This document shows, one piece after another, positions 12,001 to 64,000 of a stretch of DNA of 64,000 nucleotides (position 1 is its first letter; each line of letters begins with the position of its first letter). The stretch lies in the NCBI GenBank assembly GCA_963920635.1, contig OY987308.1, positions 3,538,225 through 3,602,224 on the forward strand. Reading direction: 5' to 3'. The notes under the pieces are model-generated. The model did no database searches. It saw only the letters and a list, made by a program, of their open reading frames with translations, and had not been told where the DNA came from. This stretch comes from Pseudeuparius sepicola (Eukaryota; Arthropoda; Insecta; Coleoptera; Anthribidae). Position numbers and translations under genes: made by a program.

Positions 12001-15000
12001 ATCGTGTTTTGATAAATTTTTTTGCGTTTACTGTAATATATACTTTTGGGCGATGCGTAATATATAAATTTGACTAAGAAAAGATTATTCACGCAAATTT
12101 CTATAAATAATATCATATAAAAAAATATTTCGACTTCGGGCTTCTGCCCTTTCTGCTGCAGCGTTGCCGGTGCACTTTAGGGATGCGCGGCGCGACCTCT
12201 GGTGACGACCGGTGGTACCCTAAATTATTATATATTGGCGCACCAAATTAATATATCGTGTTTTGATAAATTTTTTTGCGTTTACTGTAATATATACTTT
12301 TGGGCGATGCGTAATATATAAATTTGACTAAGAAAAGATTATTCACGCAAATTTCTATAAATAATATCATATAAAAAAATATTTCGACTTCGGGCTTCTG
12401 CCCTTTCTGCTGCAGCGTTGCCGGTGCACTTTAGGGATGCGCGGCGCGACCTCTGGTGACGACCGGTGGTACCCTAAATTATTATATATTGGCGCACCAA
12501 ATTAATATATCGTGTTTTGATAAATTTTTTTGCGTTTACTGTAATATATACTTTTGGGCGATGCGTAATATATAAATTTGACTAAGAAAAGATTATTCAC
12601 GCAAATTTCTATAAATAATATCATATAAAAAAATATTTCGACTTCGGGCTTCTGCCCTTTCTGCTGCAGCGTTGCCGGTGCACTTTAGGGATGCGCGGCG
12701 CGACCTCTGGTGACGACCGGTGGTACCCTAAATTATTATATATTGGCGCACCAAATTAATATATCGTGTTTTGATATATTTTTTTGCGTTTACTGTAATA
12801 TATACTTTTGGGCGATGCGTAATATATAAATTTGACTAAGAAAAGATTATTCACGCAAATTTCTATAAATAATATCATATAAAAAAATATTTCGACTTCG
12901 GGCTTCTGCCCTTTCTGCTGCAGCGTTGCCGGTGCACTTTAGGGATGCGCGGCGCGACCTCTGGTGACGACCGGTGGTACCCTAAATTATTATATATTGG
13001 CGCACCAAATTAATATATCGTGTTTTGATAAATTTTTTTGCGTTTACTGTAATATATACTTTTGGGCGATGCGTAATATATAAATTTGACTAAGAAAAGA
13101 TTATTCACGCAAATTTCTATAAATAATATCATATAAAAAAATATTTCGACTTCGGGCTTCTGCCCTTTCTGCTGCAGCGTTGCCGGTGCACTTTAGGGAT
13201 GCGCGGCGCGACCTCTGGTGACGACCGGTGGTACCCTAAATTATTATATATTGGCGCACCAAATTAATATATCGTGTTTTGATATATTTTTTTGCGTTTA
13301 CTGTAATATATACTTTTGGGCGATGCGTAATATATAAATTTGACTAAGAAAAGATTATTCACGCAAATTTCTATAAATAATATCATATAAAAAAATATTT
13401 CGACTTCGGGCTTCTGCGCTTTCTGCTGCAGCGTTGCCGGTGCACTTTAGGGATGCGCGGCGCGACCTCTGGTGACGACCGGTGGTACCCTAAATTATTA
13501 TATATTGGCGCACCAAATTAATATATCGTGTTTTGATATATTTTTTTGCGTTTACTGTAATATATACTTTTGGGCGATGCGTAATATATAAATTTGACTA
13601 AGAAAAGATTATTCACGCAAATTTCTATAAATAATATCATATAAAAAAATATTTCGACTTCGGGCTTCTGCGCTTTCTGCTGCAGCGTTGCCGGTGCACT
13701 TTAGGGATGCGCGGCGCGACCTCTGGTGACGACCGGTGGTACCCTAAATTATTATATATTGGCGCACCAAATTAATATATCGTGTTTTGATATATTTTTT
13801 TGCGTTTACTGTAATATATACTTTTGGGCGATGCGTAATATATAAATTTGACTAAGAAAAGATTATTCACGCAAATTTCTATAAATAATATCATATAAAA
13901 AAATATTTCGACTTCGGGCTTCTGCGCTTTCTGCTGCAGCGTTGCCGGTGCACTTTAGGGATGCGCGGCGCGACCTCTGGTGACGACCGGTGGTACCCTA
14001 AATTATTATATATTGGCGCACCAAATTAATATATCGTGTTTTGATATATTTTTTTGCGTTTACTGTAATATATACTTTTGGGCGATGCGTAATATATAAA
14101 TTTGACTAAGAAAAGATTATTCACGCAAATTTCTATAAATAATATCATATAAAAAAATATTTCGACTTCGGGCTTCTGCGCTTTCTGCTGCAGCGTTGCC
14201 GGTGCACTTTAGGGATGCGCGGCGCGACCTCTGGTGACGACCGGTGGTACCCTAAATTATTATATATTGGCGCACCAAATTAATATATCGTGTTTTGATA
14301 TATTTTTTTGCGTTTACTGTAATATATACTTTTGGGCGATGCGTAATATATAAATTTGACTAAGAAAAGATTATTCACGCAAATTTCTATAAATAATATC
14401 ATATAAAAAAATATTTCGACTTCGGGCTTCTGCCCTTTCTGCTGCAGCGTTGCCGGTGCACTTTAGGGATGCGCGGCGCGACCTCTGGTGACGACCGGTG
14501 GTACCCTAAATTATTATATATTGGCGCACCAAATTAATATATCGTGTTTTGATATATTTTTTTGCGTTTACTGTAATATATACTTTTGGGCGATGCGTAA
14601 TATATAAATTTGACTAAGAAAAGATTATTCACGCAAATTTCTATAAATAATATCATATAAAAAAATATTTCGACTTCGGGCTTCTGCCCTTTCTGCTGCA
14701 GCGTTGCCGGTGCACTTTAGGGATGCGCGGCGCGACCTCTGGTGACGACCGGTGGTACCCTAAATTATTATATATTGGCGCACCAAATTAATATATCGTG
14801 TTTTGATATATTTTTTTGCGTTTACTGTAATATATACTTTTGGGCGATGCGTAATATATAAATTTGACTAAGAAAAGATTATTCACGCAAATTTCTATAA
14901 ATAATATCATATAAAAAAATATTTCGACTTCGGGCTTCTGCCCTTTCTGCTGCAGCGTTGCCGGTGCACTTTAGGGATGCGCGGCGCGACCTCTGGTGAC

Positions 15001-15165
15001 GACCGGTGGTACCCTAAATTATTATATATTGGCGCACCAAATTAATATATCGTGTTTTGATATATTTTTTTGCGTTTACTGTAATATATACTTTTGGGCG
15101 ATGCGTAATATATAAATTTGACTACAAAAAGATTATTCACGCAAATTTCTATAAATATCATATTA
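1..15165. repeat. 254-bp tandem satellite array, 59 full monomers plus one broken monomer
   Basis: The same unit starts at 1, 255, 509 and so on to 14987, always exactly 254 bp apart. The array extends off the left edge. Each monomer has a GC-rich block of about 100 bp, which includes a GGGC-TTCT-GCCC hairpin and the palindrome ACCGGT inside GGTGACGACCGGTGGTACC, and an AT-rich block of about 150 bp with runs of TAATATATA. Monomers differ at only a few sites: CCAGTGG against CCGGTGG (first two monomers only), GATATATT against GATAAATT, ACTACAAAA against ACTAAGAAA, and CTGCCC against CTGCGC. The variants occur in runs of neighbouring monomers, which indicates local homogenisation. The last monomer loses identity at about 15150. 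No open reading frame or RNA gene is seen in the unit. Confidence 0.98.
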
Positions 15166-15258
15166 AAAAAATATATTAGCGCGAGAAATTTATATATTCA
15201 AAAATAATAATTTAGTCCGAAATGGCGCCTCATATTCCATCGTCTAAGCAAATCTAAA

Positions 15259-19044: not shown

Positions 19045-19906
19045 CCGGGAGATAGTGACAGATTTTTGGACGTGATTTTACTCAGTATGCCTTTCATAGG
19101 GCATTATGTTGCGTATATTCTCACAATAATAAGGTATGAATCAGAGGGTCATCCTGGGTTCTTCATGTAAAAAACTGAATTTTCAATTATTCGAAAAATA
19201 TGCGTTTTGATACGATTTTATACAGGCTGCCATGTGTTTTATAATGAAGTTCAAAATAGAAAATTTCTCGGAAAACCATAGGCATACCGTTAGGGTGGGT
19301 CCAAAGGGCTATTATTGCCACGTGATCTTGTATTTTAATTATTAATTTTTCCACGTTTCTGAACAAACTGCCAATGAGAAGTATGCAAGTTCTTATTATG
19401 AAAATGCTGAAAAAAGGATGGCATACCTTTCGCGCATGTCCAAGTACCTACTGTTTAAATTGAATGTTATTTAAACATTTAAACGAGTTATTCGATGTAA
19501 AGTGTACTTGGACATGCGCAAACGGTATGCCATCTTTCCTTCAGCAGTTTCATAACAAGAACTTGCATACTTCTCATTGGCAGCCTGTTCAGAAACGTGG
19601 AAAAATTAATTATTAAAATACAAGATCACGTGGCAATAATAGCCCTTTGGACCCACCCTAACAGTATGCCTATGGTTTTTCCAGAAATTTTCTATTTTGA
19701 ACTTCATTATAAAACACATGGCAGCCTGTATAAAATCATATCAAAACGCATATTTTCTGAATAATTGAAAACTTCGTCTTTCACATGAAGAACCCAGGAT
19801 GACTCTCCGATTCATACCTTATTATTGTGAGAATATGTGCCACATAATGCCCTTTGCAAGGCATACTGAGTAAAATCACGTCCAAAAATCTGTCACTATC
19901 TCCCGG
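19045..19906. mobile_element. Foldback element with CCGGGAGATAG ends
   Basis: The left arm starting CCGGGAGATAGTGACAGATT is mirrored by the right arm ending GTCACTATCTCCCGG. The arms are near-perfect over about 420 bp, around a small centre at about 19470-19490. A relic of one end of the same family lies at about 43985-44040. The element ends about 105 bp before the acceptor of the JHBP exon. Confidence 0.85.
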
Positions 19907-22232: not shown

Positions 22233-25200
22233 CTAAAACGGAAAAAGTATTTGTTATAAACGAAACAATATATTTTATAAAAAAAAATAGTGTCTTTATG
22301 TGACTAAAAATTTCAACAAACGAGATCTGAGCATCACTCGGTAAAAAAATAAAAAAATTAGCCACAAACGGGAATTGAACCAGGGACCTCTCGCACCCAA
22401 TGCGAGAATCATGCCACTAGACCATTGTGCTTCCATACAAAATTTACTTAACTGGCCACATTTAAATTTAATTGCCATTCATAAAAGTTGAAGTCTATTT
22501 GATAGCTTTCATGTAAGTACATCGATGTTGAGTAGAATGAAGAGAAATCTACGAGTGGCCCCTGAGGAAAACATATGGAAAATTCGATTTTCCTATATAA
22601 TGTATACAGGGTGACCATATTTCGAGTCTATGCATGGGGCTTCTTGGTTATCTTAAGAGATACGAGGTCGGTTAAATCGGGGCAAAGTTGCGGAATTTGA
22701 TGCCGAGTAACATGGTAGAAAGAAATTTTGGCTGGCCCTTTTCGTTTTGAAAATAATGCGAAAAAAAACTGAAAATTGTCGTTTTCGTTTTTATTTTTTT
22801 AAACGAAAACGAATGGCGCTGGACATTTCTAAGTTAAACATAATTAAGGCACTTTTTACAAGGAATCTAAATTAGGCCTCGCATTTTTTTTTCACGCCTC
22901 CCTGGACAAAGATATGATGATCAACTTTTATTTTTCTTATGGGTGCAATATTGGATTTTTGCATTTTTGAAAATAGGATTTTTTTATGGTTAAAATGATA
23001 TGTCACACATTATGCTTTACTTTGTTTTTCTTGCCGTAATATCAATTTAATCGTTTTTGCATAGAGTGCCTTGGAAACGTATGCCCCATAATGTTTGACT
23101 TTTTGCATAGAGTGCCTTGGAAACATAAGCCTAGTTACCCATTGTTGCGAAGTGTGCTTTGGAATATTGTTTAACGGTTCAGTAAAAATTCGGTTAATGT
23201 TAAGTTTATTGATTAAATAAATCATAAACGTACCACGAGAGTATGATCTGAGATCTTGTTATTTATTCGGCATTTGTCATATAACATATAACACTAAAAG
23301 AGTCAAACTGGAAACACAAGAAGAACAAAAACCTTAGACGAGTAGACAATCCCATTTAACAATAAATGTTCAATTTGTCCTCCTTGTTCCTCAAGGCACA
23401 ATGCAGCATGTTTCCTTAAATTGTTTATGGCTCGTCCAATATCCCTTCGACGTCATTTATATTTGAGGAATAATAAATTCACGCTTTTCTTCATGTGAAA
23501 ATTAATTTTTTTCAGTAAAATAAAGTATCAGTAACACTTGAAATTGTAGGTACTAAACTATCAAACGTTATATGCGGCTTATGTTTCCAGGGCATTGTAT
23601 GCAGAAATGTCAATCATTATGGGGCTTACGTTTCCAAGGCACTCTATGCAAAAACGTCAAACATTACGGGGCTTGCGTTTCCACGGCACTCTATGCAAAA
23701 ACGATTAATTTGATATTACGGCAAGAAAAACAAAGTAAAGCATAATGTGTGACATATCACTTAAACCATAAAAAAATCCTCTTTTCAAAAATGCAAAAAT
23801 CCAATATGGCGCCCATAAAAAAAAAAGTTGATCGTCATATCTTTCTCCAGGGAGGCGAGAAAAAAAATTTGAGGCCATAGTTAGATTTCTTGTAAAAAAG
23901 TGCCTTAATAATGTTTAACTTAGAAATGTCCAGCGCCATTCGTTCTCGTTTAAAAAAATAAAAACGAAAACGACAATTTTCACTTTTTTTGCATTATTTT
24001 CAAAACGAAAAGGGCCAGCCAAAATTTCTTTTTACCATGTTACTCGGCATCAAATTCCGCAACTTTTCCCCAATTTAACCTCGTATCTCTTAAGATAACC
24101 AAGATCCCCATGCATAGACTCGCAAATACGGTCACCCTGTATATGTCAGCTCTAGTTTAAAAACTTTAAATTCTTCCACAAAATGAAAAGAGTCCTATAT
24201 TAAGCTGTCATTCATTTATCCATATTCCGCCCGCGGAAGTTTCCAATAAAGAAACTTATATTTTTTATGGAAAGACTTACGGCTGTAAGGCGGTCTTGTC
24301 GTAATTGAACTCTTCCGTGGCCGCTTGCATCATTTCCTTGCTCAAGATCATATTTCTGTGGTCGAGCGTCATGCCCGTCGAGGTTATGCCAGGGCAGACC
24401 GTCAAGACCTTGACCTTGGTCCTGTTGTAGGTCAACTTGCCGCCCAGGGCCATGCCCAAGCCGAGCAAGGCCATCTTGGACGCGCTGTAGACCGGCATGC
24501 ATTCGGACGGGTACACGCCGGTGATCGACGAAATGTTGACTATGATCCCTCCGGATTGTTGATAGTTCGGCAGGTAATTGTCGAGGGCCAGGTACGTGGA
24601 GCGCACGGTAGCGTTCTGAAAGCAGGGACGGCGGGGTTTGCAAACGTTTTTAAATTTTCCCGCGGTGGAAAGATCTTCTAAATAACACGTTACGGAACTG
24701 TTTCCTGTGCAAAAATTTTTTTCCTGCTCCCTTCCCCGTAAGTTCACTTTACATGCTCGCCAACAGGTCGGAAAGCGAAAGCGAAATGTTCGAGGTGCTG
24801 TTGCCTGAAAGAATTCCGCCAAGTGAGTTGCTTTGCTAAGATTTTGTTGCTGCGGTAAATAGATATTATGCTGTCATAGCAAAAAAAATTGCTGTGGCAA
24901 GTAAACCTGTTTTGCTAAAACTTCTTTGCTACCACAGCAAAATTTTTACTTGCGGTTAAAGGGTAGGTCACTAATAGAAATTCCAGTCGTTTTGTTACTA
25001 CAGGTGAGTGCAGTCTGCTGCAATGCACTCAGCTGTGGTCACGGGCGTAGCCAAGGGGGGGTTTCGGGGGTTCAAACCCCCCCCCCCCGAAATAAGCAAA
25101 ATATAAGCAAAATATTACCTAATATTATACCGAAAAAATACGAGGAGTGAAGAGTTAAATTATTATTACGTTTGAATATATTATGTAGTAATAGTAGCGC

Positions 25201-28200
25201 CTAGCGCCATCTTTTGACGAGAGGCAGACGCAGTTGCAGCCGAACTATTTTGTATTGTAGGGACACTTTGCGTTGTTTCTCGATTATTCGCCACGCCCCT
25301 CGGTCGAAATGAGCGGAACTTTGTGGAAGTTCGTGGAAGTTTCTGGACGGCTACTGGGCTGCTATATAAGCGGCGCCGCGGCGCGTGACCGCGCTTACGG
25401 CAGTATCGTTCCATGCGAACTCGAAGCGAATAAAAGTGAAAAGTGGTGAACGAATAGTGAAGAGAATTAAGTGTACCGTGTAAGTGAGTAATTTTAGTGC
25501 GCTGTTATTCGATGACCTTGTTAAGGATAGATACGTGAATCATTATTACTGTCGAAAATGGAGGGGAAAAAAAGGAAGGGTGATAAACTTAAAGGTATGG
25601 ACTACTGGAAAAAGTGGTGTAGTCAAGGTCAAGGGGTTTCTAATAAAGAAACAAATTTGGATTTAGCTATCAAAGCTTCAGCTACCTTGCATGCTGATAA
25701 GAAGACTGCCTACCCCGAAATCTAGTTTGGAATGCCTAGATATGTGCGATAAAAACCTTTATCCTAATATTTACACATTACTACAAATCTTGGCTACCAT
25801 TCCTGTATCCACTGCTACCCCAGAAAGGTCTTTCTCGAGCCTAAGGAGACTGAAAAACTATTTACGAAACACTACAAGTGAAAACAGACTTAATGGTTTG
25901 GCTCTAATGAACATTCACTATGGAACAGAAATTCATGCAGATAAAGTAGTGGATATATTTAAAAGAAAAAGCCGAAGATTTCTTCTTTAATGGTTTTAGA
26001 TTTAGCGCAGAGGAACGAAATTAATTTATCCATTTCATTTAAAGTTAAGAACTTTATAAATATGTCGTAGTTTTTCGGATGAATATATAGATATTAAATT
26101 TCATGTAAGTATATTTTTGTTGTTTTATTTACTTCTCAAACTAACCCCCCCCCCCCCAAAACTAAATCCTGGCTACGCCCGTGTATCAAATGTTCAACAA
26201 AAGCTTGCGGAATATTCTCCCATTCTTCAATAGCGACCACTATGAGTTGGTTGTGATTGGTTGATCTACGATTTCGAATCTTTTTTTTTGCGACAGCCTC
26301 ATAGATGCTTTATAGGATTCACGTCAGGCCATGTAATAAAGGGATATTAACATCATTTAGGTAGCCAATAACCTGTCTAGCGACATGGGGACGAGCGTGG
26401 TCCTGCATGAATAAAAAATTTAGTCCAAAAGGCATTACATGTTTGACAATAATGTTGTCTAGTAGGTACTATTGGGCATTCATAGACCTCGTACTTATAG
26501 GGACCAAGTCCGTATGAGCATCGAAGCAAATCCCCCCCCCCCCCCCCAAACATTTTAGAGACACCACCAAAAGGTACGTTAGGAATGATATTACCTTTCT
26601 CCTCACCTTCGCCAGATACGCTCACGTCCATCTGGAGATTTAAGGCTAACTCTAGTTTCATCGTAGAACAGAACTTGTTTCCAATCATTGATGGTCCAAT
26701 TCTGATGTAGCGTTGCAAAATTCAATCTCTGAACTTTGTGTTCTCTGGTAAGCAATGGTTTTTTGGCCGGTCTTCTGTTGGTCAATCCTGCTTCATGTAA
26801 ACGTCTTTTAACCGTTCGAGACGATATTAGGGTCGCCACCTGTCCTTTTTTGAAAAGGACAGTCCTTTTTTCAAACAAATTGTCCTTGCTACTTTTTTAG
26901 CCCCAAAAATTTTTACAAAATTTAAACTTTTTAATGTTTTGTTATAATTTAATTTGTAAGAAAATTTCTAGAACTGTGAAAACATTGTAACGCTACTTCC
27001 AATATTTTTGCCTGGAATAATCACAAGTTTTTTAAAGGCAATAGCATTTACAATGTTGTTACACGAAGTTGTATTGAGACACGATACGTTTACAATTGGA
27101 AAGTGAATAATTTTGTTATGAACTAAAAGAAGAAGAAGTCCTCGGAGAATATTATTCATTACTCTTCGGAAGGTGCTGGGTGCATTTTTGGGACCAAATG
27201 CCATGCTTTTAAATTGATAGTGACCTATGTCTGTAGAAAATGCCGTTTTAGGTATATCTTCTGGTGACATTACTTCGAATTTGACAAAATTTAAACTTTT
27301 TAATGTTTTGTTATAATTACAGCTTCTTTATCTTTTAATTTCACTTTATCTTTAAGAAATCGCCAACGGCATTTATCCCTTGATTTGAACTGACCAATGA
27401 CATTTAGTATTTCTTAAAGATAAAGAAAAATTAAAAGATAAAGAAGCTGTATGACCCAGGCTTTAATTTGTAAGAAAATTTCTAGAAAAATTTTTGACAA
27501 CGTCCTTTTTTCACTTTACAAAAGTTGGCAACCCTAGACGATATAGCGATATTTCGAACATCTGCTAATTCATTTTTTAGCAGATTGCTGGTGACTCTCC
27601 TGTCTCTGAGAGCACGTTGTCACAAAAAACGATCATCAATTTGATTAATGCAATGTTTTTGGCTTGCCCTGGTCCTCGATGGTACGAGCCCGTCTCATTA
27701 CATATTGCATTCAATATCCTTCATCGAGGAGAGTCTATGCTCGCACTGCATCCTCAACTGACAAATTTCTTTGGCGGTTCATTTTCCTTACTTTATTTAC
27801 TCGCAGATGAAACTCACAACATGCATGTGATAAAAACAATCACAATCGATTTTAAAACGGGGTTTAATACGAATTACTGTCAAAACAAGGTTATGCGGTA
27901 AGTACTATAGTTAGCTCAAATAGCAATTGTCACTGTCAAACAAGATCCGTAGCCTACTTGTCGAGGAAAAAATATAAAAGTATAAAAAATATTGAGAAAA
28001 ATATGAGTGGTGCGTTAATTTTGTCCAGCAGTTTATATATCATCGGCCTCGGAATTATTTTGACTTTTGACATATTAATATGTCGTTCAAAAACTATAAT
28101 ATATTATTATTTACTAATTATGTATTTATTTTCTTCTCTCAATCGAAATGAACGGAAAACGATCATTAAATATTTTCCTCAGTAGGTACGTTGATAGATG

Positions 28201-35377: not shown

Positions 35378-36577
35378 GGGGAAAGTGACCTATGACGGCC
35401 CCTTGCCTGTGACGGCCCTCAGCTCATATTTACTGCTATGAATGTTGGGCTGCCTAAATTTATTACTGTATTTGAACCTCTTGTTGGGTACTGTACTCTA
35501 ACGAATTTGTGATAGTCGGCATTGCTCTGGTGTTTTGTTTTCAAGAAAAAATGAATCAGGTGAGTGGTGATGTAATAATAATGTAATTTCAAATGTGTCT
35601 AGCGCAATAACAAATTGGGCTATGGAGGTTAAATTTGAACCAAACTGTTAACGCTGCTTTTGTAATAAAACCTCTGTGTCAGTTTTGAGGTTATGTTTGC
35701 TTGTAAGGGGAGTGACCTTCGTGTAGTATGAAACGTGTTTTTGCCTATGATGGCCCCCAAAGTGTGTTCGTATGATGGCCCCGGGGCCATCAATGGTACC
35801 ATAATTTTCGAATATAATTTGTCTTTTTTTATTTATTTTCGAATCGAAATAAAGAGAGGCGGCAGCAGTGGAGTGAACAGGATAATGGCTGCTGCTATAC
35901 AATCCGTGCAAAATAATGATATGGGATATACAATTGCGTCAAAAACATTTAATGTTCCTCGAACTACGTTACGTAGAAGACTTCGGTTAAATCAAGGTAG
36001 TACGAAGGGGTACTTAGGTGGTTACAAAGCTACATTTAATCCGGATATCGAAGCATAAATTGTCAAACATATAGTGAATTTAGAAACAAGATTTTTTGGA
36101 CTTAGCAGTGGAGAATTAAGAAAACTTTTATTCCAAATAGCAAAAAAACACCACCTTAAGCATCGATTCAATAGAGAAAAAGGAAAAGGAAAGTTAAGTT
36201 CCTTTTCAAGTACAGAAAGAGTTGTTATTTTTCAGAGTAGAACGTTTAGTTTGTATTTTGACATATTTTATTTATAATAAATGTTTTTTTCTCTATTTTG
36301 TGTTTATTTCGTAGCCAATTACCTCAAAAAAATTAATATATCTTTGTTTTTTTCGAAGGGTCCATCACAGGAGCCTCGGTGCCTATGATGGCCCCATCAA
36401 CATTTAAAAAAATAATAATAATTTGTGTTAAAAAATAATATTTAAATATTCTTATTGTTGATTAGTAAAAACACTCCATAACTGCTTACATTAAGCGCAA
36501 ATTCGTTTTGAAATTTTCACAGGTGTCAATATTATAGCCAATTAATGTTAGGGGGGCCATCAAAGGTAACCTTCCCC
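35378..36577 (+). mobile_element. pogo-type transposon relic, 1.2 kb, TA duplication
   Basis: TA-GGGGAAAGTGACC at the left and GGTAACCTTCCCC-TA at the right are imperfect inverted repeats of about 30 bp that continue into GGCCCC. This fits the Tc1/mariner/pogo superfamily. TATGATGGCCCC-like motifs recur internally at about 35391, 35745, 35771 and 36383. The DDE domain is deleted. Confidence 0.8.
35881..36180 (+). pseudogene. pogo-type transposase N-terminus (psq/CENP-B-like HTH)
   Basis: The frame shows an HTH of the psq/CENP-B N-terminal type: IMAAAIQSVQNNDMGYTIAS then KTFNVPRTTLRRRLR. A TAA at 36056 interrupts the frame. The same frame then resumes with IVKHIVNLETRFFGLSSGEL and the basic tail KHRFNREKGKGK, as in pogo/Tigger-like proteins of insects. 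Nothing of the catalytic domain follows. An upstream ATG at 35735 opens the frame, but the HTH begins near 35881. Confidence 0.75.
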
Positions 36578-50400: not shown

Positions 50401-53400
50401 TGCATTCAGATGGCCCGTGTTGACATGCGAACCTCCACGCCCCGTCGACGAGACTATGCTGAAAGTTTTCTTAAAAATCGCCAAATCGTTCTCTTAATTT
50501 AATCTTGATTTGAAGAAAACAAGGTACCACAAAAATACTAACAACGAACGAATAAAAACCTATAATATTTTCTAAAAATTTATTTAATACAGGGTGGTTC
50601 ACTTTTATGTGGTAGGACTTTAACATTAGATAGAAAATTTTATATCAACATATATCGGGGAAAGCTTAGTTTCCGAGATACAGGGCGTTGAAGTGTTGGA
50701 AAAAATATGAAGTATTTTTTACACTGTCCGAACCAGTGGAGATATTTAAACCAAATTTGATGTGTAGTATCACCTTTTTGACTACGATATTTAGTGATAA
50801 TATGAAGGTCCTGAAATAACCAGTGGTGGAGTTACGGGTTTTCACTATCACTAAATTTAAAACGTAATTAGTACGGACCTGTCTCACATCAACGTAAATT
50901 TTTTTTTTCGTAAAGTTCTTTCAATTCTCTACAAAAAGTGTATCTTGACATTTTTTTGTATCTGCCACGGTTGTGTAGTAAATAAATTATTTCGTTTCCA
51001 TCTCAGCCTTTTTTGCCTAAAAATGTGTTTTCTAAGATTATTGATAAATATCGCAAATAACAGAAATTAATTATGGAACACTTATCGGATTCAGCTATTT
51101 TATTTTTAATTTTATGGAAACAATTTTAAAAATAAACTGGCACTTGGTTTGAGGTACATTACTTTATTATCATTTTAACATTTTTATCAAATCTGTATTA
51201 TTTCTTAATAATTTTTATAATTCTAAATTTGTAGAATTCTAAATTATACCACGACGAGTAAAACATGATTCTTCCGCCCATAAAATGTTATTTAAAAATT
51301 GTCTTATTTCCTTTGACTACAAAATCCATCGACAAAATACTAATGTCCTTTCTGCATCGCCGTACTGGTGAAGATAAGTGTGCCATGGAAAAGAAAATCT
51401 TATTGACAGTTAATAATACAATAATCTGTCATCCAGTAGATGAACGTAGCAGCGCCGCAGTTTGTCTTTGTTAATAATTAAAATGCCGTTCCAATTTACA
51501 AATGAAGAGCAGGCTGACATCCATTTCTGCTATGGAGTTGCAAATGGGAACTCTGCGGAAGCAGCCAGAGAATACCGGAGGCGATTTCCAAATAGGCGCC
51601 ATCCGCGTCCCTCGGTGTTTGTTAACATGCACCGGCAATTCAGAACTCGCGGTCTGAGAACTAGAATCGTCGAACGAGGAAATGAAAACAATATCCAACA
51701 AGTCAGACGCAACAATGAGATTCTTCGTGAATTCGATAGGAATCCTACAACAAGTAGCAGAAGAGTGTCAGTGGCCCTACGTGTTTCAAAGTCTGCAATT
51801 TTGCGAGCTTTAAAAAGAGATCACAGGCATACGTATCATCTACAACCCGTACAAGGTTTAAGGCCCGGCGATGCAGAAAGAAGATTATAGTGTTTTGCCG
51901 ATGGATTTTGGAGTCAATTGAAGGAAATAGACAATTTTTAAATAACATTTTATGGACGGACGAGTCGTGTTTTACTCGTCGTGGAGTAGTAAACTTTCAT
52001 AATCAGCATATTTGGGCACAAGAAAACCCACATGCAATCCGGCCAAGAAATTTTCAGGTCGAATTTAGTGTCAATGTTTGGATTGGACTGTACAACCATC
52101 ATCTGTTTGGACCCTTTTTTTTGCCACAGCGAGTGAATGGTGACAATTTTTTGGAGTTTTTAGTAGCTGAGCATAATAATATGTGGGAAGACATTCCTTT
52201 AAACTTAAGATTGTTGGCTTGGTTCCAACTTGACGGCTGTCCTGCACATTTTCACCGAAATGTGAGGAACTGGTTAAATAATAACTTTCCAAATAGGTGG
52301 ATCGGACGAGGGGGACCGGTCGCTTGGCCACCACGTTCTCCGGACATAACACCTCTGGACTTCTTCGTATGGGGATTTTTAAAAGAACAAGTCTATGCGA
52401 CTCCTGTAGAAACAAGGGAACAACTTATTGATCGTATCAGAAATGCGTGCGATGAATTGAGAAATGGCAATTTAATCGATGCTGTTCAATCCGTTAGGCG
52501 TCGAAGTGAATTATGTGTGCAACAGAATGGATCACATTTTGAACAATTGTTGAATGTTGTACAAATTTAGAATTATAAAAATTATTAAGAAATAATACTA
52601 GATTTGATCAAAATGTTAAAATGATAATAAAGTAATGTACCTCAAACCAAGTGCCAGTTTATTTTTAAAATTGTTTCCATAAAATTAAAAATAAAATAGC
52701 TGAATCCGATAAGTGTTCCATAATTAATTTCTGTTATTTGCGATATTTATCAATAATCTTAGAAAACACATTTTTAGGCAAAAAAGGCTGAGATGGAAAC
52801 GAAATAATTTATTTACTACACAACCGTGGCAGATACAAAAAAATGTCAAGATACACTTTTTGTAGAGAATTGAAAGAACTTTACGAAAAAAAATTTACGT
52901 TGATGTGAGACAGGTCCGTACTAATTACTTTTTAAATTTAGTGATAGTGAAAACCCATAACTCCACCACTGGTTATTTCAGGACCTTCATATTATCACTA
53001 AATATCGTAGTCAAAAAGGTGGTACTACACATCAAATTTGGTTTAAATATCTCCACTGGTTCGGACAGTGTAAAAAATACTTCATATTTTTTCCAACACT
53101 TCAACGCCCTGTATCTCGGAAACTAAGCTTTCCCCGATATATGTTGATATAAAATTTTCATTTTAGATTATCTTTTTCTATCTAATGTTAAAGTCCTACC
53201 ACATAAAAGTGAACCACCCTGTATAATATAATATAATATCTTACCGCTGCCTTTCCGTAAGGAACAAGTTCGATGTCTAGATTCTCCTTGAGATCTTCAA
53301 AGTTTGGATAAAGTTGCCTGGTGAGAAACTCTATGCTGTCACTACACAAGGATTCATAATACACAGACACCTTCATCGATACCTGAAAAAAAATTAGGTA

Positions 53401-56400
53401 ACCAATGTGCAAACAGGGTATTTCATTAAGGGTAAAGAGGTACCACATCTCGGGAATTAATAGTCCTGGAGCTTTGGGAAATAGTATATTTCATTACGAG
53501 TCTGGAAATAAAGATTTTTCCGTGCGCGCGTGACAAATTCCCGTGTGAGTCGCAGCCGAACACGGGAAGTCATGCAAGCACGGAAAAATCTACTTCTGGA
53601 CGTGTAATGAACGATATTTTTTATTATACTTCTTTGAAAACGGAAACTTAAAACATTTTATCGGCATATTATAATAAATTTAATTGAGGAAAAATAAACA
53701 ATACAGACAATATAGTGTTTGAAAAGGGAAATAAGTGTATTTCCATGCAAATAATTTACTTAAAAATCATGGTAAAGCGCTTTCGGCTGTTAAGCCATCC
53801 TCAGTACCACTTGTCAAGTGTGTACAGGAAAATTGGAGCATAAAGCATTATACAACAGTAAAAAACCCATAAAATAGAAGGTCACACCAAGTCACATTTT
53901 AAAAACTTTGTGCTAGCCCGAAAAACCCCATCTTTCATTATTGCTAAAACAGATGAAAATAAGGTGTTTTCAAAGAAGTATAGTAAAAAATAATTTCCAG
54001 TGATTTTTCGTGACCACATTACTTAAGAAGATTTTTTTCCCAAAGCTCCAGGACTATCAATTCCTGATATATTGTACCTCTTCGCCCTTAATGAAACACC
54101 CTGTATATTATCTTTCCTTATTTAGGTCAGAACAAAAATGCAGGTAATTAAAAACCGATTTTTTAAAATTCAGCTGTAACCTTCTGCATTTTTTAAGGGG
54201 AGCAATTTTGAATATAAGTATAAGTGTGGTCAAATCGCCATACTTTGACGTCAAAAATCTAGGATTGAGTTATATTTTACAGCCATACAAATGTATGTAA
54301 TTTATTCTGGACAAACAATTAAGATAAACAATCAAACGTGTGCTTTATAATTTCAACTAGATTTATTTTTAGTAGAGGACACACAACAATTAATTATTAC
54401 GTTTTATTTTTTGCCGGGTTCTTAACCTTTAAACTAAATGTTGTTTGTTATTCATACGCGAGTTATTAAAACTTGTCTGTTTCATAGAACTTATCTGTTA
54501 AAGACATACAGTTTTTTTGCATGAATACATTAACAATTTTTTACCTCGTTGAATTATATTTTTGCACTTGTGGGACCAACACTATATTAAATAAGACCTA
54601 TGCATAGCGTTGTTTCAAGCGATCGCCACTGGCGCCACACGACGAAACAAATTTACACGGTGGTTTAATGTCAAAACCCCATTGTTGCAGAATCTTTTAT
54701 AAAAAAAAACATGCAAATGTGTCTGTTACAACGAATTTAATATCCAAAATAAAATAAAATAATAAATGATGTTTAGTGGCATATCAGGTAAAGGATATCA
54801 ATTGAAAAAAATGCACTCCAGCCGGGACTTGAACCCGGGACTCCTACTGTGGCCGTAGGCACTTTAACCAACTAAGCTACCGGAGATATGGGTTCCATCG
54901 GCTAGGCGTTATTTATTCCAATTGATATATAGTTAGTAGCGGTGAGATGTAGAAGACTTCGGCGTCTTCTACAGCTACTAGAAGGGGTTAGAGGGTGTAG
55001 GGAAACCATTCATTATTGTTGGTTATGTAAACTTCCTATTTTATTATTTATAATTATTACAGGTACTAAAAATCTTTCTGTGTTTCGTAAAATAAAATAT
55101 TTGTTTGTTATGCCCCTCTAATTTGACAAGTTCACATGGCATCTTTCCATACATTTTCAAGCAAGCAAGAGTATTTGGTACCTTTTGGTTTGAAATGAAG
55201 TCCATGGCTAGTTGTAGTGGAAGTAAGCATAAAACACATTAGATTTTTCAGTTTCTTCTTTATATGGAGGACTATTAGTTCGATTTGGAGCTATAAACAA
55301 AACTTTCTATTTTCATTCTTGCCTACGTTACAAAATACTCTTCCAAAATAATATCTAGAATTTTCGCTTCTTCAGCAGGTTGGTCAGATCACTTAATGGT
55401 CTGTGCAGTGGCATGTTTTCTGAAGAATATGCCATATTTAAGTATTATTTTAAAACGGTAAGATGGTGCTTGTTTTCCGTTTTCGTTATTAGTGATACGT
55501 TTGTGGGATATTTCGGTTTATCCGATTTTCAAATATTTTTAAAGTATTTCTGATTTGTTATTGGGAATAAAAAAAAACAATTTTCCCAACTATAGATAAG
55601 TTCCTGTAGAAATGTTAGTTGACTATGTAAATTCATAAAACTTTGATATTTGGGTTTCATGGGATGCTGATTAAAACTAAAAATAGTTAATAGTATTTTT
55701 CAAAATCTCGCATCGAAAAATCATACTTAAATCTATCATATTTAAGCATTATTTAAAAAAAATAAAAGCAAAAAAAACCTTTTTAAAAACAAGCTTTTAT
55801 TTAAGCCTTGTTCTAAAACGAATAAAAAGAAGATAAAAAACCTTTACAAAAAAAATATTTAAGCCATGTATTAAAACGACTAAAATAAAATAAAACAAGT
55901 CTAGGTTTTCGTTAAGATAATTCAATGCCAAATCGCGACAAGTTTTTGTAAATCAAAAAGCTTGACGCGCGGATGTTCATAAAAGTAGGTACCAATTAAT
56001 CTTATTGGGAAATGATTGGTTGATAAGAAAGTACCTACTTGCCAAAGTATGTGTTTTCTTCACAATTCGCGCAACAAGCTTTTTGATTTACAAACACTTG
56101 TCGAAATTTGGGATTGAATTATCTTAACGAAAACCTAGGCTTATTTTATTTTATTCGTTTTAGTACACGGCTTAAACAAAAACTTGTTTTTAAAAAGGTT
56201 TTTTTTGTCTTTTATTTTATTTTTTGCTTTTTAGTACCTATTTGATTCCCATATCAGGAGGGTGGTAAAGAAATTTAGTCCGCCATCTTGGGGCATCCGA
56301 TATATTGGATTTAGTGTGATGTCTGTAACATTATCGTTTTCTACTCTTCAAGCCCTTTCATTTGATACCCATATTAAGGGGGTTGACCAAAAATACATCA

Positions 56401-59075: not shown

Positions 59076-60100
59076 GCTCGACGGTCTTTTCTTGGCGAAA
59101 CAATCCACCTACTGGAATGGAAGCAGACGACTGAGCGATTTAAATGATTAAATAATCGGCTTTGTCGCTGAGCGCCCAGTGAGATTTCATTCCGAATACC
59201 CATAGTCAATTTACGGTGAAGAGTCACAACATTAATCTTATCCTGTTGCCGGAGTTATAACGTCGAGTGAAGAATAAGAGGCACTACCAATGTCGTCAGA
59301 ACCTATAGACAGGTTGGTTTTGATAAACGCTTGACACCCAGAACTAATCACAATCTAAGCGCTCCATTAAATTATTCCGAAAATATCGCGAGATTGTCAG
59401 AAATTGCCCCTTCTTGTCGAGCCGTAGCGAACTTATTTCGACTCTAGGCTCGGAGGCTGGCGTCGTTAGACCATCCCCCGAGTCTTCGGGTGAGGTTCCG
59501 ACGCTTCCGGCGCCCCCAAACAAGAAAAAACATGCGATATCTAAGTGTGATTTTGGAGGAACATAACCGGGAATCACCGGGTGTATAGTTGGTTGATGGT
59601 TGACTTTCTGTCTTTGTTTGTAGCATGTTTTTAGAGTAGTATGGATATATATTTAATCTTGGAATCAAAATAAAGGGCATTTTAACAATGGGGCACCACG
59701 TCTATAGGTTTTGACGTCATTGGGCACTACCTTCAGTGAGGTAACATACATTTTTTTCAAAGTATCTGGGTACAGATACAGATACGTTAAAAAAGTATCT
59801 AGATACTTCCAGATACTTTCAAATACTATCAGTTAATTAGGAAAATTTCAGACCTCATAAGGCAATCAATATACTTACCTACTTAGATATTTATGAAACA
59901 AGTGTGGGTGTGTAGGTAAAGTAGAACTGTTTAGACAAATGTGAAGTTTAGATTGTTACTAATCAAAACAAGTTGTGGGTTAGTAGTTTATCGTGTTTAT
60001 CGTGAGCACTAAGTAGGTACTTTATGTACGGTGTTTTGGAAAAATGACTAAATCACACCCCATTTTATTACAAGCTTTTATTTAAATTGCAATGTATGTA
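59076..60100. other. GILT upstream region, with a GTATC/GATAC cluster
   Basis: GILT 5' flank. TATTTAA on the minus strand (59148-59154) and TCAGT (A at 59132) may be its core promoter, though the 22-base spacing is short. At 59758-59830, GTATC and GATAC occur about eight times in 70 bp. No other gene is recognised. Confidence 0.35.
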
Positions 60101-60109
60101 TGATTGAAT

Positions 60110-60660
60110 GTATGTTTAGGTTTAGGTCAAATCTTGCAAGATGAATTAGAACCACTTCCTGACATCCGAGCTGAAATTTTGCATACACCTTTAGTTCCGG
60201 TGACAATACAATATGCAATACTCAATATTGTAATACTTTCAAAATGGCCGTCGCGACAAGATGGCGGACGATGTATTTTTTATCAACCCCCTTAACATGG
60301 GTATCAAATGAAAGGGCTTGAATTGAAGGGTAGAAAACGATAAAGTTAGTGACATCACACTAAATTCAATATGGCCGCCCTTCTAAGATGGCGGATAATG
60401 TATATTTTTGTCTACCCCCTTGATAAGGGTATCAATAGAAAGGGCTTGAAGAGTAGAAAACGATAGAGTTAGTGACATCACACTAAATTCAATATGGCCG
60501 TCGCTCCAAGATGGCGGATGATGTATTTTTTTGTCAACCCCCTTAACATGGGTATCAAATGAAAGGGCTTGAAGAGTAGAAAACGATAAAGTTAGTGACA
60601 TCACACTAAATTCAATATGGCCGCCGCTCCAACACAGCGGATTACACTTTATTTTCCCTT
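60110..60660 (+). repeat. Minisatellite, about 123-bp period, 3 to 4 units
   Basis: CAAGATGGCGGA-like blocks lie at about 60256, 60384, 60507 and a decayed one at 60630. Each is followed by CCCCCTTAACATGGGTATCA, AATGAAAGGGCTTGAA and AGTTAGTGACATCACAC. Confidence 0.85.
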
Positions 60661-60854
60661 AATATGGGCATTAAAATTAAATCAAACCAAGGTAAACCCA
60701 TAATTTTGTTACATTATACAACTGTATATGATATAAAAGCTTGTCGCGAGAATATATATATATAATAAGGATGTAAGATTAGCGAGTGTAAATGTAATAA
60801 TTACAAGAAAAGGTGATAATGGGCAAACACTCAAAGTTAACAAAAAGAAAAAAC

Positions 60855-60910
60855 TAGTAACCGCATACACGTGTTTCATGCTATTTGGCAATCATCAGTA
60901 CGGTGTAACA
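60855..60910 (-). ncRNA. Hammerhead ribozyme motif, array unit 1
   Basis: Minus strand: core CUGAUGA, helix II UUGC-CAAAUA-GCAU, core GAA, helix III palindrome ACACGUGU ending in U16.1, then A17. Helix I pairs ACCGUA with UGCGGU; in this unit a U at 2.2 gives a G-U pair where the others have A. Predicted cleavage is between 60866 and 60865. The CAAAUA loop is the same as in natural metazoan hammerheads. Confidence 0.82.
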
Positions 60911-61180
60911 TTAACCAAATCAAAAGATAGGCATGATTTGGGAAGCAACAAATGAAGTCCAGGCAGGAGCCAACAGCACATTTGCAGCTTCAGTCAGCAC
61001 ATCCGCTATTTTGGGGCTTGTACTAACATCGCCACGGAGGCTGCTAAAGCGACCTGCGTGGAAATCTTCATAACCCAAGATACAATGACAATAAGGATGT
61101 AAGATGAGCGAGTGTAAATGTAATAATTACAAGAAAAGGTGATAATGGGCAAACACTCAAAGTAAACAAAAAGAAAAAAC

Positions 61181-61236
61181 TAGTAACCGCATACACGTGT
61201 TTCATGCTATTTGGCAATCATCAGTTCGGTGTAACA
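61181..61236 (-). ncRNA. Hammerhead ribozyme motif, array unit 2
   Basis: All core bases are intact. Helix I is ACCGAA against UGCGGU with one G-A mismatch. Helix III is ACACGUGU. Predicted cleavage is between 61192 and 61191. Confidence 0.82.
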
Positions 61237-61506
61237 TTAACCAAATCAAAAGATAGGCATGATTTGGGAAGCAACAAATGAAGTCCAGGCAGGAGCCAAC
61301 AGCACATTTCCAGCTTCAGTCAGCACATCCCCTATTTTGGGGCTTGTACTAACATCGCCACGGAGGCTGCTAAAGCGACCTGCGTGGAAATCTTCATAAC
61401 CCAAGATACAATGACAATAAGGATGTAAGATTAGCGAGTGTAAATGTAACAATTACAACAAAAGGTTTTAATGGGCAAACACTCAAAGCCAACAAAAAGA
61501 AAAAAC

Positions 61507-61562
61507 TAGTAACCGCATACACGTGTTTCATGCTATTTGGTAATCATCAGTTCGGTGTAACA
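61507..61562 (-). ncRNA. Hammerhead ribozyme motif, array unit 3 (helix II damaged)
   Basis: The core is intact, but helix II reads UUAC-CAAAUA-GCAU, so one of its three pairs is lost. It is the least likely to be active. Cleavage would be between 61518 and 61517. Confidence 0.7.
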
Positions 61563-61841
61563 TTAACCAAATCAAAAGATAGGCATGATTTGGGAAGCAA
61601 CAAATGAAGTCCTGGCAGGAGCCAACAGCACATTTGCAGCTTCAGTCAGCACATCCCCTATTTTGGGGCTTGTACTAACATCGCCACGGAGGCTGCTAAA
61701 GCGACCTGCGTGGAAATCTTCATAACCCAAGATACAATGACAATAAGGATAATAAGGATGTAAGATTAGCGAGTGTAAATGTAACAATTACAACAAAAGG
61801 TTTTAATGGGCAAACACTCAAAGCCAACAAAAAGAAAAAAC

Positions 61842-61897
61842 TAGTAACCGCATACAAGTGTTTCATGCTATTTGGCAATCATCAGTTCGGTGTAACA
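61842..61897 (-). ncRNA. Hammerhead ribozyme motif, array unit 4
   Basis: The core is intact. Helix III is ACACUUGU, which keeps the outer A-U, C-G and A-U pairs but is no longer fully palindromic. Cleavage would be between 61853 and 61852. Confidence 0.8.
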
Positions 61898-62167
61898 TTA
61901 ACCAAATAAAAAGATAGGCATGATTTGGGAAGCATCAAATGAAGTCCAGGCAGGAGCCAACAGCACATTTCCAGCTTCAGTCAGCACATCCCCTATTTTG
62001 GGGCTTGTACTAACATCGCCACGGAGGCTGCTAAAGCGACCTGCGTGGAAATCTTCATAACCCAAGATACAATGACAATAAGGATGTAAGATGAGCGAGT
62101 GTAAATGTAACAATTACAACAAAAGGTGATAATGGGCAAACACTCAAAACCAACAAAAAGAAAAAAC

Positions 62168-62223
62168 TAGTAACCGCATACAAGTGTTTCATGCTATTTG
62201 GCAATCATCAGTTCGGTGTAACA
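62168..62223 (-). ncRNA. Hammerhead ribozyme motif, array unit 5
   Basis: As unit 4 (ACACUUGU helix III). Cleavage between 62179 and 62178. Confidence 0.8.
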
Positions 62224-62493
62224 TTAACCAAATCAAAAGATAGGCATGATTTGGGGAGCAACAAATGAAGTCCAGGCAGGAGCCAACAGCACATTTGCAG
62301 CTTCAGTCAGCACATCCCCTATTTTGGGGCTTGTACTAACATCGCCACGGAGGCTGCTAAAGCGACCTGCGTGGAAATCTTCATAACCCAAGATACAATG
62401 ACAATAAGGATGTAAGATTAGCGAGTGTAAATGTAACAATTACAACAAAAGGTTTTAATGGGCAAACACTCAAAGCCAACAAAAAGAAAAAAC

Positions 62494-62549
62494 TAGTAAC
62501 CGCATACACGTGTTTCATGCTATTTGGCAATCATCAGTTCGGTGTAACA
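62494..62549 (-). ncRNA. Hammerhead ribozyme motif, array unit 6
   Basis: As unit 2 (ACACGUGU helix III). Cleavage between 62505 and 62504. Confidence 0.82.
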
Positions 62550-62819
62550 TTAACCAAATCAAAAGATAGGCATGATTTGGGAAGCAACAAATGAAGTCCA
62601 GGCAGGAGCCAACAGCACATTTGCAGCTTCAGTCAGCACATCCGCTATTTTGAGGCTTGTACTAACATCGCCACGGAGGCTGCTAAAGCGACCTGCGTGG
62701 AAATCTTCATAACCCAAGATACAATGACAATAAGGATGTAAGATTAGCGAGTGTAAATGTAACAATTACAACAAAAGGTTTTAATGGGCAAACACTCAAA
62801 GCCAACAAAAAGAAAAAAC

Positions 62820-62875
62820 TAGTAACCGCATACAAGTGTTTCATGCTATTTGGCAATCATCAGTTCGGTGTAACA
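62820..62875 (-). ncRNA. Hammerhead ribozyme motif, array unit 7
   Basis: As unit 4. Cleavage between 62831 and 62830. Confidence 0.8.
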
Positions 62876-63145
62876 TTAACCAAATCAAAAGATAGGCATG
62901 ATTTGGGAAGCAACAAATGAAGTCCAGGCAGGAGCCAACAGCACATTTCCAGCTTCAGTCAGCACATCCCCTATTTTGGGGCTTGTACTAACATCGCCAC
63001 GGAGGCTGCTAAAGCGACCTGCGTGGAAATCTTCATAACCCAAGATACAATGACAATAAGGATGTAAGATGAGCGAGTGTAAATGTAACAATTACAACAA
63101 AAGGTGATAATGGGCAAACACTCAAAACCAACAAAAAGAAAAAAC

Positions 63146-63201
63146 TAGTAACCGCATACAAGTGTTTCATGCTATTTGGCAATCATCAGTTCGGTGTAAC
63201 A
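63146..63201 (-). ncRNA. Hammerhead ribozyme motif, array unit 8
   Basis: As unit 5, its higher-order partner. Cleavage between 63157 and 63156. Confidence 0.8.
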
Positions 63202-63471
63202 TTAACCAAATCAAAAGATAGGCATGATTTGGGGAGCAACAAATGAAGTCCAGGCAGGAGCCAACAGCACATTTGCAGCTTCAGTCAGCACATCCCCTAT
63301 TTTGGGGCTTGTACTAACATCGCCACGGAGGCTGCTAAAGCGACCTGCGTGGAAATCTTCATAACCCAAGATACAATGACAATAAGGATGTAAGATTAGC
63401 GAGTGTAAATGTAACAATTACAACAAAAGGTTTTAATGGGCAAACACTCAAAGCCAACAAAAAGAAAAAAC

Positions 63472-63527
63472 TAGTAACCGCATACACGTATTTCATGCTA
63501 TTTGGCAATCATCAGTTCGGTGTAACA
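63472..63527 (-). ncRNA. Hammerhead ribozyme motif, array unit 9
   Basis: Helix III reads AUACGUGU, turning the second pair into U-G; otherwise as unit 6. Cleavage between 63483 and 63482. Confidence 0.77.
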
Positions 63528-63797
63528 TTAACCAAATCAAAAGATAGGCATGATTTGGGAAGCAACAAATGAAGTCCAGGCAGGAGCCAACAGCACATTT
63601 ACAGCTTCAGTCAGCACATCCGCTATTTTGAGGCTTGTACTAACATCGCCACGGAGGCTGCTAAAGCGACCTGCGTGGAAATCTTCATAACCCAAGATAC
63701 AATGACAATAAGGATGTAAGATTAGCGAGTGTAAATGTAACAATTACAACAAAAGGTTTTAATGGGCAAACACTCAAAGCCAACAAAAAGAAAAAAC

Positions 63798-63853
63798 TAG
63801 TAACCGCATACAAGTGTTTCATGCTATTTGGCAATCATCAGTTCGGTGTAACA
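63798..63853 (-). ncRNA. Hammerhead ribozyme motif, array unit 10
   Basis: As unit 7, its higher-order partner. Cleavage between 63809 and 63808. Confidence 0.8.
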
Positions 63854-64000
63854 TTAACCAAATCAAAAGATAGGCATGATTTGGGAAGCAACAAATGAAG
63901 TCCAGGCAGGAGCCAACAGCACATTTCCAGCTTCAGTCAGCACATCCCCTATTTTGGGGCTTGTACTAACATCGCCACGGAGGCTGCCAAAGCGACCTGC

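Follow-up and report, generated by a model that had tools for sequence, protein, structure and literature searches.

A 326-bp retrozyme-like satellite with a type I hammerhead motif in every unit in the beetle Pseudeuparius sepicola

Hammerhead-bearing repeats are on record from animals ranging from cnidarians to amphibians, including insects (PMC7229834, PMC2837043, PMC3088659), and satellite families with functional hammerheads have been described from schistosomes (PMC8490949); these four sources, as well as PMC7761336 below, are represented here by parts of their text. The present work concerns a tandem array of 326-bp units lying at the right end of a 64,000-nucleotide stretch of the Pseudeuparius sepicola (Coleoptera, Anthribidae) genome (contig OY987308.1, positions 3,538,225 to 3,602,224; hereafter, the window), each unit of which carries a hammerhead motif on the minus strand. 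The metazoan non-LTR (lacking long terminal repeats) retrozymes have, as described in PMC7229834, a type I hammerhead in each tandem unit, units of 170-400 nt and a GC content below 50%, all of which the array shares. No stop-to-stop frame that overlaps the array exceeds 77 aa, even with open ends counted. Compared with the invertebrate retrozymes described in that text, the predicted ribozyme is more defective and the units have a three-unit higher-order structure. Hence, in its layout, unit size, GC content (40.8%) and type of hammerhead, and in having no long frame, the array fits the metazoan non-LTR retrozymes as a further, retrozyme-like family of a known class, in line with a preliminary description of this DNA that had called it a retrozyme-like tandem repeat; it would add one probable insect family to this group.

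Other described hammerheads help to place the array. The axolotl HHR_Amex2 has a U-U at the base of helix II; as a monomer, 22% of it was cut within one hour, and dimeric constructs performed far better (PMC7229834). Compared by description, the array shares with HHR_Amex2 / Rtz_353 the U-U, a weak helix III and tandem units of approximately 350 bp, whereas it belongs to another animal group and also has an A-G in helix I. According to the text available from PMC3088659, U10.1-U11.1 starts helix II in other natural hammerheads too, and is the best tolerated mispair. Within insects, the satellite pDo500 of Dolichopoda cave crickets likewise embeds a hammerhead, for which single and double forms were proposed; its repeat is about 500 bp long and its hammerhead is significantly more conserved than the rest, unlike the one analysed here (PMC2837043). 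The repeat-type hammerheads of Aedes aegypti, compared by description, are also repeated and have a palindromic stem III proposed to let them act as dimers, but they are tied to interspersed repeats, and the form that was tested was inactive in vitro (PMC3088659).

Tandem Repeats Finder delimited the array with a period of 326, 9.9 copies and 97% matches (Table 1). The ten units are arranged head-to-tail, and the array extends past the end of the window; one of the unit steps is 335 instead of 326 because of a 9-bp duplication. Once aligned, the units differ pairwise at 0-12 positions, with 20 variable columns in total; being copies of one another, they represent one observation rather than ten independent ones. 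No further copy was found within the window when unit 6 (doubled; the one unit compared) was searched against positions 1-60763, the best match being of 14 bp (E 0.12). Pattern scans for relatives in viral contigs gave a single match (L001), where the stretch 4800-5300 has no such repeat; those in genome contigs gave at least 118 stretches, and among the 80 matches listed all were titled prokaryotic. Both results were taken as chance.

On the minus strand, all ten units contain the motif CUGAUGA / 4 nt / CAAAUA / 4 nt / GAA / 8 nt / A. Its parts follow one another as the helix I 5' strand, CUGAUGA, helix II with the loop CAAAUA, GAA, helix III, A and the helix I 3' strand, which is the order of a type I hammerhead. 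In the standard numbering, the hammerhead core comprises C3UGANGA9, G12A13A14, A15.1-U16.1 and H17; this invariant core is present in ten units out of ten, and so are the loop CAAAUA and the internal loop UUAC/UAC of stem I. Helix III reads ACACGUGU in four units, AUACGUGU in one and ACACUUGU in five; it can therefore form three or four pairs (out of four), with scarcely any loop. Five or six of the six positions can pair in helix I, and two or three of the four in helix II. The latter starts in each unit with a U-U, surmounted by three pairs (two in unit 3). The second position of helix I is an A-G in nine units (five pairs out of six), while unit 1 alone has a U-G there and all six positions paired. 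The computed cuts are spaced 326 nt apart, save one step of 335.

These data bear out most of what the preliminary description had read in this DNA, that is, a 326-bp satellite with a hammerhead in every unit, a metazoan type I design with a CAAAUA loop and a U-U at the base of helix II. Some details need to be amended: the two versions of helix III that it listed are joined by a third one (AUACGUGU); the G-A mismatch in helix I does not extend to unit 1; and the ends 60865 and 61192, proposed as being joined in RNA reads, are as a pair one base off.

Table 1. Coordinates of the array, its hammerhead motifs, its left edge and its 9-bp duplication (window positions; each cut is given as the two bases flanking it)
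Feature	Unit start	Position	Strand	Remarks
Array of 326-bp units		60764..64000	hammerhead sense = minus strand	9 full units and 1 truncated by the window end
Left array edge		60751..60764	.	unit base 1 preceded by 13 A/T bases; on the minus strand, 102 nt 3' of the cut in unit 1
Hammerhead, unit 1	60764	60860..60904	-	all 6 helix I positions paired, in this unit alone; RF00163 26.5 bits, E 0.0021; cut 60866/60865
Hammerhead, unit 2	61090	61186..61230	-	RF00163 24.7 bits, RF02275 25 bits; cut 61192/61191
Hammerhead, unit 3	61416	61512..61556	-	a G to A change removes one helix II pair; RF02275 21 bits; missed by the 64-kb Rfam search and by the descriptor; cut 61518/61517
Tandem 9-bp duplication AATAAGGAT, unit 3/4 junction		61742..61759	.	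second copy and left array edge share one starting unit base
Hammerhead, unit 4	61751	61847..61891	-	helix III ACACUUGU; Rfam search; cut 61853/61852
Hammerhead, unit 5	62077	62173..62217	-	helix III ACACUUGU; Rfam search; cut 62179/62178
Hammerhead, unit 6	62403	62499..62543	-	palindromic helix III ACACGUGU; Rfam search; cut 62505/62504
Hammerhead, unit 7	62729	62825..62869	-	helix III ACACUUGU; Rfam search; cut 62831/62830
Hammerhead, unit 8	63055	63151..63195	-	helix III ACACUUGU; Rfam search; cut 63157/63156
Hammerhead, unit 9	63381	63477..63521	-	helix III AUACGUGU (C-G turned U-G); Rfam search; cut 63483/63482
Hammerhead, unit 10	63707	63803..63847	-	helix III ACACUUGU; Rfam search; cut 63809/63808

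A satellite unit might, in principle, happen to hold a hammerhead-like string by chance. The best Rfam scores are in fact under the gathering thresholds (26.5 of 34 bits for RF00163 and 25 of 52 bits for RF02275), the best E value in a search over the whole 64 kb is 0.034 (nine of the ten units being listed up to E 10), and the predicted folding, given below, is poor. On the other hand, when positions 60000-64000 were searched against all 4227 Rfam families with an E limit of 10, each of the ten units matched RF00163 or RF02275, with a best E of 0.0021, values not exceeding 0.0047 in eight units, and 0.087 and 0.14 in the remaining two. Thus, a covariance search of the minus strand, as suggested in the preliminary description, does retrieve hammerhead models in all the units, in each case below the gathering score. 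Moreover, a type I descriptor, composed once the motif was already known and ignoring the loop sequences, matched nine units; among the 200-kb chunks of 221.4 Mb of random sequence of like composition (one strand), it matched 13, i.e., about 0.06 matches per Mb even before any loop match is demanded, and it had no match on either strand of positions 1-15174 or 15175-60763. According to the consensus lines of the models, CAAAUA is the loop of RF00163, and UUAC and UAC are the two sides of the stem I internal loop of RF02275. Because the loops of the motif are identical to those of the models, we conclude from the sequence that the motif in each unit is a true homologue of the metazoan type I hammerheads; a chance origin appears very improbable.

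The interpretation to which we lean, as somewhat probable, is that the array is a satellite belonging with the metazoan non-LTR retrozymes, having weak ribozymes that likely cut as dimers and having later grown at the DNA level. On this view, the units would be transcribed, cut and circularized and would be mobile, and the cutting would most likely be performed by a double hammerhead, in which two motifs pair through the palindromic ACACGUGU, as in newt and axolotl. Dimeric cutting would most likely be needed since the ribozymes are predicted to be weak as single motifs, and it is the favoured mechanism because the axolotl hammerhead with the same U-U cuts best as a dimer. With its intact core, its helix II U-U and its partly palindromic helix III, the array offers a natural test of dimer-only hammerheads.

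The growth of the array can be followed in the units themselves, whose core, loops, tandem layout and three-unit structure are directly seen. At a lag of three, the distances between units are, from left to right, 12, 8, 4, 2, 0, 2 and 1, those between neighbours (lag 1) being 4-10. From 61751 rightwards, the corresponding lag of 978 bp gives 5 mismatches in 1272 bases, a count that leaves out four earlier positions falling within the 9-bp insertion. This similarity implies that three-unit blocks were duplicated once the units had diverged. Higher-order repeats usually betray DNA-level exchange or amplification, and the three-unit repeat points to such a later expansion, in which block duplication would have enlarged the array that is now visible; the preliminary description makes no mention of it. 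A single copying round of one RNA circle would not produce the three-unit structure, which carries no information on the arrival of the first copies.

Several results weigh against an array of active retrozyme units. At gathering scores, the Rfam search of the whole window retrieved no hammerhead, just a tRNA. The motif is no more conserved than the remainder of the unit (4 variable columns out of 45 versus 16 out of 281; Fisher p = 0.50), and a fully palindromic helix III (ACACGUGU) is found in just four of the ten units. The unit 3/unit 2 pair of two-strand 45-mers is not predicted to form a double hammerhead; the 45-nt dimer of unit 6 with itself is no stabler than its shuffles (238 out of 500 equally good); and, when 15 nt were added on each side, another two-strand fold beat the double hammerhead in both of the units tried (1 and 6). 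The best predicted fold of the whole unit 6 is not a hammerhead. Furthermore, nine two-unit transcripts were folded (the last including the truncated unit), and in all nine the double hammerhead lies 10.3-23.7 kcal/mol above the predicted optimum, while two single hammerheads with helix III left free lie 12.2-21.9 kcal/mol above it. A monomer hammerhead as the native fold, which was also considered, is not supported by the fold of the whole unit 6 or by those of the nine transcripts.

Other folding data help to read these values. For the single 45-nt motif, the hammerhead fold has -4.4 kcal/mol in unit 1 and from +0.3 to +7.0 in the others, the best folds having from -3.7 to -6.9. Under the same energy rules, the RF00163 consensus likewise misfolds (-7.8 for the hammerhead versus -12.8 for the best fold), and so the energy model undervalues real hammerheads too. 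Among the two-strand 45-nt folds whose structures were inspected (three neighbour pairs and unit 6 with itself), a double hammerhead results, apart from lone pairs, for unit 2/unit 1, unit 6/unit 5 and unit 6/unit 6. As a whole, unit 6 (the one unit folded) is stabler than its shuffles (z -2.0; 2 out of 100 equally good), and retrozyme RNAs are described in the text of PMC7229834 as highly self-paired. According to these predictions, the sequence permits a weak and probably dimeric ribozyme; the folding evidence speaks against a strong activity, and self-cleavage itself is doubtful. The expectation of the preliminary description that the transcripts would readily self-cleave is thus not upheld, given the lack of matches at the gathering score and the predicted folds of the single unit and of the nine two-unit transcripts.

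It is quite possible, if less than an even bet, that the motif is a fossil, i.e., a hammerhead inherited from an ancestral retrozyme and now inactive, and that the array is an ordinary satellite which unequal exchange maintains and spreads. The mispairs (U-U at 10.1/11.1 in the ten units and A-G at 1.2/2.2 in nine), the helix II pair lost in unit 3, the innermost helix III pair lost in five of the ten units, the motif without excess conservation, the unfavourable folding and the three-unit higher-order repeat would all agree with this. In contrast, hammerheads elsewhere can be active with the same U-U, as stated in the parts of PMC7229834 and PMC3088659 considered here, and the core, cleavage and loop bases do not vary across the ten units, which is weak evidence given 20 variable columns overall. 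None of the four variable columns of the motif falls in the invariant core; one change adds a pair (unit 1), another leaves the pair in place (in unit 9, C-G to U-G) and each of the other two abolishes one (in unit 3 and, in helix III, in five units).

The left edge of the array is of interest for the question of which enzyme inserts animal retrozymes, for which the retrozyme authors, in the text available from PMC7229834, name Penelope-like elements as strong candidates. These elements have type I hammerheads, a tandem arrangement and insertion in AT-rich DNA (PMC11167929). In PAc, the Penelope-like element of the green anole, the hammerhead cuts at 26 nt and reverse transcription begins 111-118 nt into the frame, that is, by subtraction, 85-92 nt after the cut; the target is AT-rich and the genomic copies end at the reverse transcription starts (PMC11167929). 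In the array, the edge and the 9-bp scar, the sole tandem duplication of 7-59 bp inside it, share the same start base, which represents the 3' end on the hammerhead strand and lies at both places 102 nt past the cut. PAc and the array are thus alike in a hammerhead upstream of a fixed insertion end and in an AT-rich target, and unlike in that PAc encodes a reverse transcriptase and an endonuclease.

From one edge and one scar, it may be suggested, as an unlikely but checkable reading, that the array edge is the scar of a retrozyme insertion near a Penelope-type internal start of reverse transcription. Three points speak against it. The stem-loop between cut and edge is no stabler than mononucleotide shuffles in the two units tried (z about 0); the flank consists of a simple TA run, and outside its satellites the window is 66% A/T, with 13 A/T bases preceding 1.7% of the positions there (764/45513); and the 9-bp duplication can alternatively derive from replication slippage. 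Hammerhead cleavage is dispensable for the insertion of the anole element in vitro (PMC11167929). If edges of other arrays in the genome fell on the same base, Penelope-type enzymes would mobilize retrozymes via a fixed internal priming site, with the hammerhead upstream.

The same likenesses raise the improbable alternative of a direct origin from a Penelope-like element, the unit being a fragment of the pseudo-LTR, hammerhead included, that became a satellite. The hammerhead type, tandem arrangement and AT-rich insertion sites of such elements, together with the distances of 102 nt and 85-92 nt compared above, are in its favour, but Penelope hammerheads are described, in the parts of PMC7761336 considered, as minimal and without helix III or loop contacts, whereas the units have both loop motifs and a helix III of three or four possible pairs. 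In addition, no Penelope reverse transcriptase or GIY-YIG frame was found among the frames overlapping the array (77 aa at most), and the frame opened by the AUG of CUGAUGA ends after four codons (AUG AUU GCC AAA UAG).

As for the surroundings, the opposite end of the window (positions 1-15174) is occupied by another satellite, unrelated to the array and with a 254-bp unit (59.7 copies, 99% matches); checked for a hammerhead, it showed no CTGANGA on either strand and no Rfam hammerhead match. A 123-bp tandem repeat (60238-60632, 3.2 copies) lies immediately to the left of the array. A weak reverse transcriptase fragment is found on the minus strand at 26971-27327 (RVT_1, 21.8 bits versus a cut-off of 29.6). 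A transposase is split into two overlapping frames at 51450-52570, the first having a DUF4817 domain and the second sharing 97% identity with an unnamed protein and 77% with its best named match, a protein of the longhorn beetle Anoplophora glabripennis; transposons are able to move between species.

Further matches are those to a short-chain dehydrogenase (24280-24873, minus strand; no protein match of this frame at E 0.001), to a GILT thiol reductase (53191-53490, minus strand) and to a Psq-type helix-turn-helix domain (35732-36055, plus strand). A sub-threshold Rfam match to WsnRNA46 (Wolbachia sRNA 46) is located at 19401-19551 (46.3 of 65.3 bits, E 1.4e-06). Lastly, the window harbours a tRNA-Trp(CCA) at 54813-54886, which is also an Rfam match above the cut-off, and a weaker tRNA-Pro(TGG) at 22359-22432.

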